Shown here: in pieces, positions 45,544-58,225 of the stretch
How the letters are laid out: each line of letters begins with the position of its first letter
Position numbering within the stretch: the first letter of the stretch is position 1
Assembly (NCBI RefSeq): GCF_010093345.1
Contig: NZ_PDWT01000005.1
Span: forward strand, 124,001-188,000
DNA length: 64,000 nt
DNA from: Pseudoxanthomonas yeongjuensis
Lineage (GTDB): Bacteria; Pseudomonadota; Gammaproteobacteria; Xanthomonadales; Xanthomonadaceae
Direction of reading: 5' to 3'
Translations under genes and position numbers: made by a program
The notes under the pieces: generated by a model
Database searches by the model: none
What the model was told of the DNA's origin: nothing
The model's input: the letters and a program-made list of their open reading frames with translations, nothing else

Positions 45544-47433
45544 TTACGCCACGCGGCTGCGGCGCGCGCGCGTCAGGTGCACCAGCAGCAGCGAAATCGC
45601 GGCCGGCGTCATGCCGGGGATGCGCTGGGCCTGGCCAATGGTCTGCGGGCGCACCCGTTCGAGCTTCTGCATGACCTCGAAGGACAGGCCGCGTACGACC
45701 GCATAGTCGAAGTCGACGGCGATCTGCGTGCCTTCGTTGCGCTGCTGGCGATCGATCTCTTCGCGCTGGCGATCGAGGTAGCCGGAATATTTCACGCTGA
45801 TCTCGACCTGTTCGGCGACCTTGGGATCGGCCACGCCCGGGCCCAGCGACGGCACCCGCATCAGTTGCGCGTAATCCAGTTCCGGGCGCTTGATCAGGTC
45901 CAGCACGTTGGTCTCGCGGCTGACCGCTACGCCCAACGCGGCTTCCACTTCGCGACCCAACGCATTGCCGGGCGTGGCCCACAACCCACGCAGGCGCTCG
46001 GTTTCCGTCGCCACCGCATCGCGCTTGGCCTGGAATTTCCGCCAGCGCGCGTCATCGACCAGGCCGAGGCCGCGACCGGTTTCGGTCAGGCGCGCATCGG
46101 CATTGTCCTCGCGCAGCTGCAGCCGGTATTCGGCGCGTGAGGTGAACATGCGGTACGGCTCGTTGGTGCCGTGGGTGATCAAATCGTCGATGAGTACGCC
46201 GATATAGGCTTCGTCGCGGCGCGGGCACCAGGCTTCTTTATCCTGCACCTTGCGCGCGGCGTTGAGGCCAGCGACCAAACCCTGCGCGGCGGCTTCCTCG
46301 TAACCGGTGGTGCCGTTGATCTGGCCAGCGAAGAACAGCCCGGCCACGGCCTTGGTTTCCAGCGAGGACTTCAATCCCCGCGGATCGAAGAAGTCGTATT
46401 CGATCGCATAGCCGGGGCGGGTGATGTGCGCGTTCTCCATGCCGCGGATGCTGCGCACCAGTTCCAGCTGCACGTCGAACGGCAGCGAGGTGGAGATGCC
46501 GTTGGGATAGATCTCGGCGACGTCGAGGCCTTCGGGTTCGACGAAGATCTGGTGACTGGCCTTCTCGGCGAAGCGCACCACCTTGTCCTCTATCGACGGG
46601 CAGTAGCGCGGACCGATGCCCTCGATCTGGCCGCTGTACAGCGGCGAACGATGCAGCGCGCCACGGATGATTTCGTGGGTGCGCTCGCTGGTGTGGGTGA
46701 TCCAGCACGACACCTGGCACGGATGCTCGGCGACATCGCCGATATACGACATCACCGGCAGCGGATCGTCGCCGGGCTGTTCCACCATCGCCGAGTAATC
46801 CAGCGAACGGCCGTCGATACGCGGCGGCGTGCCGGTCTTCAGCCGGTCGACCACGAACAGGCCTTCGCGCAGTTTGTGCGCCAGTGCGGTCGCTGGTGGA
46901 TCGCCGGCGCGGCCGGCGGCGTACTGGGTTTCGCCGACATGGATCTTGCCGGCGAGGAAGGTGCCGGCGGTCAGCACCACCGACGGCGCATCGAAACGCA
47001 GGCCGGTCTGGGTGATGGCGCCGCGCACGGTGTTGTTCTCGATCACCAGGTCGTCGACCGCGGCCTGGAAGATCGTCAGGTCGGGTTGCGCCTCGACGAG
47101 GCGGCGGATCGCGCTGCGGTACAGCGAGCGATCGGCCTGGCAACGCGTCGCACGCACCGCCGGACCCTTCGAGGCATTGAGCGTGCGCCACTGGATGCCG
47201 GCCAGGTCGGCGGCGCGGGCCATGGCCCCGCCCAGCGCGTCGATTTCCTTGACCAGGTGGCCCTTGCCGATGCCGCCGATGGCCGGGTTGCAGCTCATCG
47301 CCCCCACCGTTTCCACGTTGTGGGTCAACAGCAAGGTGCGGGCTCCGGCGCGCGCGGACGCCAGCGCGGCCTCGGTGCCGGCATGGCCGCCGCCGATGAC
47401 GATGACATCGTAGTGGTGGAAGGAAGCGTTCAT
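45544..47433 (-). CDS. mnmG: tRNA uridine 5-carboxymethylaminomethyl modification enzyme MnmG (GidA)
   Basis: A 629-residue FAD protein that, with MnmE, modifies wobble uridine-34 of several tRNAs. The dinucleotide-binding motif [16 protein letters not shown] is at 10-25. [26 protein letters not shown] and [12 protein letters not shown], with the conserved Cys residues of the family, are present. Length is normal. Its start faces a 412-bp gap that contains a sigma-54 promoter pointing the other way. Confidence 0.97.
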
Positions 47434-47493: not shown

Positions 47494-47510
47494 TTGGCAC
47501 GGTTTCTGCG
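47494..47510 (+). promoter_or_regulatory. Sigma-54 (RpoN) promoter
   Basis: TTGGCACGGTTTCTGC matches the RpoN consensus (TGGCAC, N5, TTGC) closely. The invariant GG (47496-47497) and GC (47508-47509) are exactly 10 bp apart. Transcription would start near 47521, in the plus direction, away from mnmG. The enhancer-binding activator site is not identifiable by eye. Confidence 0.75.
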
Positions 47511-47520
47511 TTATCCCTCC

Positions 47521-47640
47521 TGCACCCGTCGTGGCAAGCGACCAGGGGCGCAGGCTGGTAATTGGAACAGGGGCCAGCCGTGTGCACTGCGGGGGAGCGC
47601 CGGGGCCGGTAGTCGGGGGACTGCCGGCCCCATTTTATTT
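47521..47640 (+). ncRNA. Candidate sigma-54-dependent small RNA
   Basis: About 120 nt between the predicted RpoN start and a strong terminator. It can form three hairpins: GTCG/CGAC (47528-47542), GGCTGG/CCAGCC with a 15-nt loop containing TTGGAACAGGGG (47553-47579), and the terminator stem. No credible small protein is encoded. The GGA in the loop is compatible with CsrA/RsmA binding, but that is speculation. I do not recognise a known RNA family. Confidence 0.45.
47602..47640 (+). terminator. Rho-independent terminator of the candidate small RNA
   Basis: A 13-bp stem (GGGGCCGGTAGTC/GACTGCCGGCCCC, one G-T wobble) with a GGGG loop, followed by ATTTTATTT. Confidence 0.75.
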
Positions 47641-47667
47641 GCGCTGGACGCCCCTGCAACAGAAAAA

Positions 47668-47690
47668 GCCCGGCATTGCCGGGCTTTTTT
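47668..47690. terminator. Bidirectional terminator
   Basis: The stem GCCCGGC/GCCGGGC with loop ATT is preceded by AAAAA and followed by TTTTTT, so it can stop transcription on both strands: from the sigma-54 unit on the plus strand and from the lipoprotein gene on the minus strand. Confidence 0.85.
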
Positions 47691-47845
47691 GTTGAGTGCC
47701 GACGCCCGGCAGGGCCGGAACAGGGGGGATCCAGATTTCCCCACCGGACGTCGACATAGAGGCGTGTCATTCCAATCACGTCAGTAAGCGACGTAACCGG
47801 TCAACTCGCGCTCAGCCTGTGACGTCCTCGCGGGCAATGCAATGA

Positions 47846-48412
47846 TCAAGGCTCCTGGCTGCGTACCCGGCTGCGGTTTTCCGAACGCGGCGGGGGTGCC
47901 GAACGCTCCGGCGGCCGCGACCTTTCCACCGGACGGGGCCGCGAGGGTTCCGCCATCCGCTGCGGTGGTTCGCTGGCCGGGCGCTGGCGGATCCCGTTGT
48001 TGCCGCTGGGCTCGCGCCCGTCACCCACGACCCGGGGCAGGCCGGGAGACTGGGGAACGCGGTTCTGCGGCGGGATCTTCACCCGGCCCGATTCCCGGTA
48101 GCGCCCGTCCTCGGGGTTGCGCCACGGTGGCGCGCGATCATTGTCGGGATCCGGCTTGTCATTGTGGCCGGGGCGGTGCGGACGATGCGGGCGGTAGAGA
48201 TAGTACGGGTAGTAACCGCCGTAGCCGTAATAGGGCGAGTAACCGTAATAGCCATAGCCGCCATAGCCATAACCGTCGTCGTAGGGGCCATAGCTCGGCG
48301 CGGAACGTCCGTAGTAGTAACCGCCCGGGGCGCTACCGCCAGCGTAGTCGTAGGTGGCGCAACCGCTGAGCGCGGCGGCGGCGATGAGTGTGGTGATCAG
48401 ACGTAGTTTCAT
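47846..48412 (-). CDS. Gly/Tyr-rich and Pro/Arg-rich lipoprotein
   Basis: A 188-residue lipoprotein (MKLRLITTLIAAAALSGC, lipidation at Cys18). Residues 20-85 are dominated by Gly and Tyr (GYGYGGYGYYGYSPYYGYGG), followed by RPHRPHRPGHND and a long Pro/Arg/Ser-rich tail ending RSQEP. Such low-complexity segments are often surface-exposed or bind ligands such as metals or cell-wall polymers, but no function can be named. The start at 48412 follows ggggggcgtc. A bidirectional terminator lies 155 bp downstream. Confidence 0.75.
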   Translation of the reverse strand: MKLRLITTLIAAAALSGCATYDYAGGSAPGGYYYGRSAPSYGPYDDGYGYGGYGYYGYSPYYGYGGYYPYYLYRPHRPHRPGHNDKPDPDNDRAPPWRNPEDGRYRESGRVKIPPQNRVPQSPGLPRVVGDGREPSGNNGIRQRPASEPPQRMAEPSRPRPVERSRPPERSAPPPRSENRSRVRSQEP

Positions 48413-57854: not shown

Positions 57855-57931
57855 GCGCCTGTAGCTCAGCCGGATAGAGTAGTGGCTTCCGAAGCCATTG
57901 GTCGGGGGTTCGAATCCCTCCAGGCGCACCA
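57855..57931 (+). tRNA. tRNA-Arg (anticodon CCG)
   Basis: A 77-nt cloverleaf: acceptor GCGCCTG/CAGGCGC, D-arm with GCTC...GAGT, anticodon stem GTGGC/GCCAT with loop TTCCGAA (anticodon CCG at 57889-57891, reading CGG), and T-arm with GGTTCGAATCC. The 3' CCA is encoded (57929-57931). Confidence 0.97.
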
Positions 57932-58225
57932 GCTTCTCTTTCCGCTACAACTGCCCCGGGTCGACCCTCGCGCGTCGACGATGGCGGCTGGCCGGCCACT
58001 GCAGGCGGGAATTTTTCTGAGTCGCGCCGCCGCCGGGCGGGTCCGGTCGCTCCGCGCCGCTGGCGTACGGCGATCCCTCCCTTCACGGTCCTGCATCGTC
58101 CGTGGGCGTCCAATAATCGCATCGGCCGGGTTTTGGCATGAAGCGTGCGTGCAATCGTAGGGAGGACTACCCTGCCAGGGAAGCCCGCCCGGCATCCGCC
58201 CCGTCCCAGAGCACAGGTATTGCAG

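Follow-up and report, generated by a model that had tools for sequence, protein, structure and literature searches.

The small RNA asX1 of Xanthomonadaceae is predicted to be under RpoN control, and its main job may be to sponge a separately transcribed hairpin RNA encoded beside it, a reading to which we assign a probability of about 0.55. The arrangement suggests a switchable pair made up of a small RNA, called the partner here, and its decoy. The promoter, both folds, the strand of the partner, the complementarity of the two loops and their joint conservation in several families can be read from the DNA itself. The window referred to throughout is the whole stretch of DNA that was analysed, 64,000 nucleotides from Pseudoxanthomonas yeongjuensis.

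asX1 occupies positions 47521-47640 of the plus strand. Membership of the family was decided by the Rfam gathering score of 70 bits, and the window RNA matches RF02235 (asX1) at 47523-47637 with 88.9 bits over the full length of the model (1-115). The consensus fold is supported by compensatory changes in 17 of 28 predicted pairs (37 sequences), pairs of the terminator stem included. The terminator (47602-47640, plus strand) has a 13-bp stem with arms at 47602-47614 and 47619-47631, a GGGG loop and a T-rich tail, ATTTTATTT. Open reading frames of at least 30 aa overlap the interval, and none has both its start and its end inside the transcript. An earlier note on this DNA had claimed a terminated RNA with no protein gene and had proposed an Rfam search and covariation tests; the claim agrees with what these gave. 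Its remark that the RNA was not obviously known in the family was mistaken. The window RNA is the same gene as asX1, a small RNA with an existing catalogue entry from Xanthomonas relatives. Its expression is documented in Xanthomonas campestris pv. raphani (PMC4652430), and the cellular RNAs listed for Xylella fastidiosa include it (PMC12189769); PMC4652430 cites Schmidtke et al. (2012) for asX1 as a Xanthomonas sRNA. The RNA itself is therefore not new. It is found in 218 of 247 sampled Xanthomonadaceae genomes, and as one copy in the window's genome. What the present analysis adds to asX1 is predicted sigma-54 control and a complementary neighbour; neither Rfam nor the literature searched, which left the 2012 discovery paper outside, gives a promoter class, partner or target.

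The sigma-54 promoter, TGGCACG-GTTTC-TGC, lies at 47495-47509 on the plus strand. The stretch 47494-47509 reads TTGGCACGGTTTCTGC, with GG at 47496-47497, GC at 47508-47509 and exactly 10 bp between them, just as the earlier note had described an RpoN-type promoter. The start of transcription predicted from it, at about 47520-47521, is within 2-3 nt of position 1 of the asX1 model. Conservation among relatives, which the note had made a test of its claim, is complete for the core of the element: TGG-N9-TGC is invariant in 70/70 non-redundant Xanthomonadaceae loci, a set that includes weak asX1 matches below the Rfam cut-off, and stands 27-31 nt before the model start. In these loci conservation is 83-97% at the bases next to TGG (C, A, C/T, G), and the flank, columns -100 to -10, is unconserved, with at most 0.3 bit per column. 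The string TGGCAYG-N5-TGC occurs twice in the 64-kb window against 0.78 expected, and 20 of 100 shuffles reach two. The string alone is thus not rare, and what exceeds chance is its position and conservation. The second perfect copy is at 58134-58148 (plus strand), about 200 bp past a tRNA-Arg gene at 57855. An imperfect palindrome, TCACA...TGTGA, is seen directly upstream of the sigma-54 promoter, about 30-60 nt before asX1, in one genus and some of its relatives (loci L002-L013); no palindrome of this type was seen in the window.

Of 247 family genomes, 244 carry rpoN, and the window genome has one copy. The three genomes in which it was undetected are one of 2.3 Mb (G034) that is 99% complete and in which asX1 was not found either, an incomplete one that keeps asX1, and another incomplete one with a sub-threshold match only. 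No report of a link between asX1 and RpoN was found in the literature searched; an earlier mention is possible in the 2012 discovery paper, which lay outside that search. A 2021 review on sigma-54 in plant pathogens names no sRNAs of Xanthomonas in the passages searched for them (PMC8657755). As far as could be checked, the family-wide sigma-54 promoter of asX1 is new.

Transcription from a sigma-54 promoter raises the matter of the activator, and three proteins of the window genome strongly match the domains of sigma-54 activators. One orthogroup alone, that of a PilR-like response regulator, is common to all six asX1-bearing genomes tested; in the window genome this protein is encoded next to a histidine kinase. 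A nitrogen or motility link of the RNA, suggested in the earlier note, is possible. An NtrC-like activator was not found in one genome (G182) that keeps the asX1 promoter. NCBIfam gives the PilR-like protein no name, its best match being AtoC, below the cut-off. TGTC, which we take to be the motif of PilR-type sites, is met upstream of asX1 less often than in shuffled sequences. Since no activator site was found upstream of asX1, the PilR-like protein is a lead only, the most likely activator on evidence that is weak. Type IV pili of X. oryzae are known to be controlled by RpoN2-PilRX (PMC8657755).

The partner, which the earlier note had overlooked, lies on the minus strand at 47695-47756, about 55 bp past the end of asX1. 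It is predicted to fold into a 17-bp stem, an AAAU bulge, 5 bp and the loop UCCCCCCUGU, and its apex, GGATCCCCCCTGTTCC (47717-47732, minus strand), is invariant across loci. Its covariance model scores 82.9 bits on the minus strand and 18.5 on the plus strand, which places the RNA on the former and rules out a hairpin on the latter. Compensatory double changes occur in 11 of 22 pairs, a count matched by 0 of 500 shuffles, in an alignment of 27 sequences selected for regular length. In the same alignment 97% of cells pair, and shifting the partner column by 1-3 lowers this to 30-50%; selecting sequences by pairing inflates the 97% figure, and the number of double changes less so. No Rfam family covers the hairpin above its cut-off. 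Identity with asX2 (RF02236) was rejected, as the match reaches 27.6 bits against a cut-off of 70 and is mostly terminator.

Behind the hairpin of the window is a terminator-like stem with a T run (47663-47690, minus strand). Roughly 40 of 69 loci have a terminator at this place, or 44 when the scan is loose, and none was seen in about 25. Upstream of the partner, a box TGAC-N6-CGTC-N6-GAC (47780-47803, minus strand) is present in 54 of 66 loci compared with 0.2% of shuffles. Its spacing is strict across loci, and it is probably a regulator site for a partner promoter. Further upstream is a lipoprotein-like gene (47846-48412, minus strand) with no NCBIfam match. On the other side of the locus, divergent from asX1, is mnmG (45544-47433, minus strand; TIGR00136, 888.5 bits). 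An MnmG match is found at 87 of 94 loci, and the window protein is 86.8% identical to a Stenotrophomonas MnmG, in keeping with a place of the window among the Xanthomonadaceae. The partner has the look of an RNA family not yet on record, with strong covariation and a distribution over an order to which Xanthomonas, Xylella, Stenotrophomonas and Lysobacter belong. The covarying hairpin with a loop complementary to asX1 is new as far as could be checked.

The two RNAs are complementary at their loops. The asX1 segment GGAACAGGGG (47564-47573, plus strand) sits in an open loop of about 14 nt in the covariation-supported fold and is complementary to GGAUCCCCCCUGUUCC of the partner apex. In nearly all loci the loop sequence is met again, as GGAACAGGGGGGATCC or a similar form, some 130-350 nt downstream from where asX1 starts; read on the minus strand, this second occurrence is the top of the partner hairpin. 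With asX1 taken without its terminator, 9 nt or more that are perfectly complementary to the partner apex were found in 67 of 69 loci, against 38 of 2070 shuffled asX1 sequences, the related sequences not being independent of one another; in almost all loci the complementary segment is GGAACAGGGG or a part of it. In other families the match is CAGGGG or longer, so that conserved complementarity to another sRNA, as expected of a sponge, is seen in both sets. The energy of the asX1-partner duplex (-23.9) is moderately lower than that of shuffles (-20.3, sd 4.7); the difference is no larger because all the sequences are G+C-rich. In one locus of the same genus as the window (L044, genome G158), the asX1 loop has become GAUACAGGGGGG, of which 9 nt, ACAGGGGGG, are still complementary to a partner loop that has not changed. 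The proposal that the asX1 loop could pair with target leaders thus stands in its first half, in that a complementary RNA exists; the best match is the neighbouring hairpin RNA, and no mRNA leader was identified.

Joint conservation extends beyond the family. A second model detected the partner in 115 of 250 genomes from the order, always as one copy; these genomes belong to five families. Outside the family, in a sample across Gammaproteobacteria, the apex is essentially absent (three genomes with scattered matches, control 2). A genome-wide pattern scan gave true loci together with chance hits in unrelated phyla; only loci that also bear the partner were used. Of 20 loci sampled in the four other families, 18 show a sigma-54-like promoter that is divergent from mnmG and lies between this gene and the partner; two outgroup loci (L431, L435) have the partner and no good sigma-54 site. 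The outgroup RNAs that would start from this promoter are unlike asX1 in sequence and keep CAGGGG, usually in a predicted loop; at L439 the motif comes later in the transcript. The RNA of family f11 is very short, at about 55 nt, and is little more than CAGGGGGAAUC(CG) followed by a terminator; it could pair over up to 13 nt with the C-rich apex of the partner. In families f12 and f3 the complement to the partner is just 6-7 nt. Preservation of the predicted pairing across families is new as far as could be checked.

A model can be proposed to explain how these features may work together. RpoN and an enhancer-binding protein would switch asX1 on. The partner would present its invariant C-rich apical loop; with loops of this kind, other sRNAs cover ribosome-binding sites that are rich in G. 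The G-rich asX1 loop GGAACAGGGG would imitate such a site and pair with the partner loop CCCCUGUUCC, and this pairing would free the mRNA targets of the partner. On our inference, the partner is transcribed and controls mRNAs, the two RNAs pair in cells, and asX1, not the partner, is the decoy. The assignment of roles follows a precedent: the partner is a stable stem with an apical C-rich loop, as in the type of sRNA represented by sX13 and HPnc5490, and the C-rich loops of Xanthomonas sX13 act on G-rich sites near start codons (PMC3771888), so that the partner is proposed as the C-rich-loop regulator and asX1 as the decoy. When ten genomes were searched for ACAGGGGG before ATG, sites were numerous, with no mRNA target recurring between genera; a single cluster of Ser/Thr-kinase-like proteins drew on four genomes and probably consists of paralogues. 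We see an even chance that the mnmG-side locus of at least five families encodes a C-rich-loop regulatory RNA, under the regulator of the TGAC-N6-CGTC-N6-GAC box, together with a sigma-54-switched anti-RNA whose body has been replaced while its pairing bases were kept. Such a two-input switch would link an RpoN activator, perhaps PilR, to post-transcriptional control.

Complementarity is symmetric, and the relation could be the reverse: asX1 would target mRNAs, and the C-rich hairpin would be an antagonist that silences it until sigma-54 raises the asX1 level. It is also asX1 for which evidence of expression exists (PMC4652430). The partner apex is, however, under much tighter constraint than the remainder of asX1, whose body has been replaced between families while CAGGGG stayed, as would be expected for the decoy of a constrained regulator. 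Together with the C-rich loops being a known targeting type in this family, this makes the reversed roles improbable. Alternatively, the two RNAs may be independent and act on different mRNAs, with ACAGGGG and CCCCUGU reflecting mimicry of the ribosome-binding site on one side and binding to it on the other. The shrinking of the match in f12 and f3 and the commonness of ACAGGGGG before ATG in these genomes fit such independence, which we nevertheless find doubtful, given the long matches within the family, those of 8-13 nt in several f11 loci and the adjacency of the two genes across five families.

The arrangement of the locus allows another explanation, by which the hairpin and its terminator are the 5' leader of mnmG, an attenuator, and asX1 is a cis-antisense RNA to that leader. 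asX1 was indeed named as an antisense RNA, and in most loci mnmG has the hairpin upstream of it on its own strand, with asX1, in antisense orientation, separating the two. One inverted locus (L442, positions 2203-2420, genome G002) speaks against this. Its order on a single strand is lipoprotein gene, partner, sigma-54 promoter, asX1 and mnmG. An mnmG leader with asX1 antisense to it is impossible in this order, and yet the inversion has left the promoter and loop of asX1 intact. Antisense action on the leader as the sole role of asX1 was rejected on this ground, and this single case speaks for action in trans. The terminator seen after the hairpin in many loci, and a TAGAAT-like sequence enriched between the asX1 promoter and mnmG that suggests a separate mnmG promoter, also make the leader explanation unlikely. 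The idea that asX1 binds a GGA-recognising protein (CsrA/RsmA), put forward in the earlier note, has in its favour that the Xanthomonadaceae RNAs carry GGA in their central loop and, in the loop of the terminator, a run of GGGGGA. By inspection there is a single GGA-bearing side loop, and several outgroup RNAs, such as that of L423 (GGGCAGACAGGGGCCC), have lost the loop GGA and kept CAGGGG, the core conserved across the order. CsrA decoys carry repeated ANGGA hairpins. A decoy of the CsrB/RsmZ type was accordingly rejected, the repeats being absent and the conserved core not being GGA, and binding of such a protein is very improbable. Both the antisense and the CsrA ideas are disfavoured.

With sponging of the partner as the preferred reading, asX1 gains a candidate partner, specific loop bases to mutate and a proposed input, namely RpoN with an enhancer-binding protein. 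Should the two RNAs indeed pair, the body of a decoy has been exchanged in evolution while its pairing bases were kept, which would make the evolution of a pair of sRNA and anti-sRNA testable. Among known decoys, enterobacterial GlmY is RpoN-controlled, and CrcZ and CrcX sequester Hfq/Crc. CrcZ and CrcX are RpoN-controlled as well (PMC8657755), and the GlmY decoy sequesters RapZ (PMC7073468). asX1 as proposed here would resemble them as a decoy small RNA; they sequester protein, whereas the expected contact of asX1 is direct pairing with RNA, and the sequences are unalike as far as inspected. The partner, for its part, resembles sX13 and Helicobacter HPnc5490 (PMC3771888) as a stable hairpin presenting a C-rich loop, and UCCCCCCUGU contains the UCCCCCU motif common to sX13 loop 3 and HPnc5490. 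It differs in having one long hairpin in place of three stems, in lying beside mnmG and not polA, and in being known from sequence alone. A parallel in organization is Campylobacter CJnc190, which is antagonised by the locally encoded CJnc180 (PMC8687705). Those two RNAs overlap, are encoded in cis as an antisense pair and undergo processing by RNase III, whereas asX1 and its partner do not overlap, are predicted to pair through their loops only, and involve a sigma-54 promoter.
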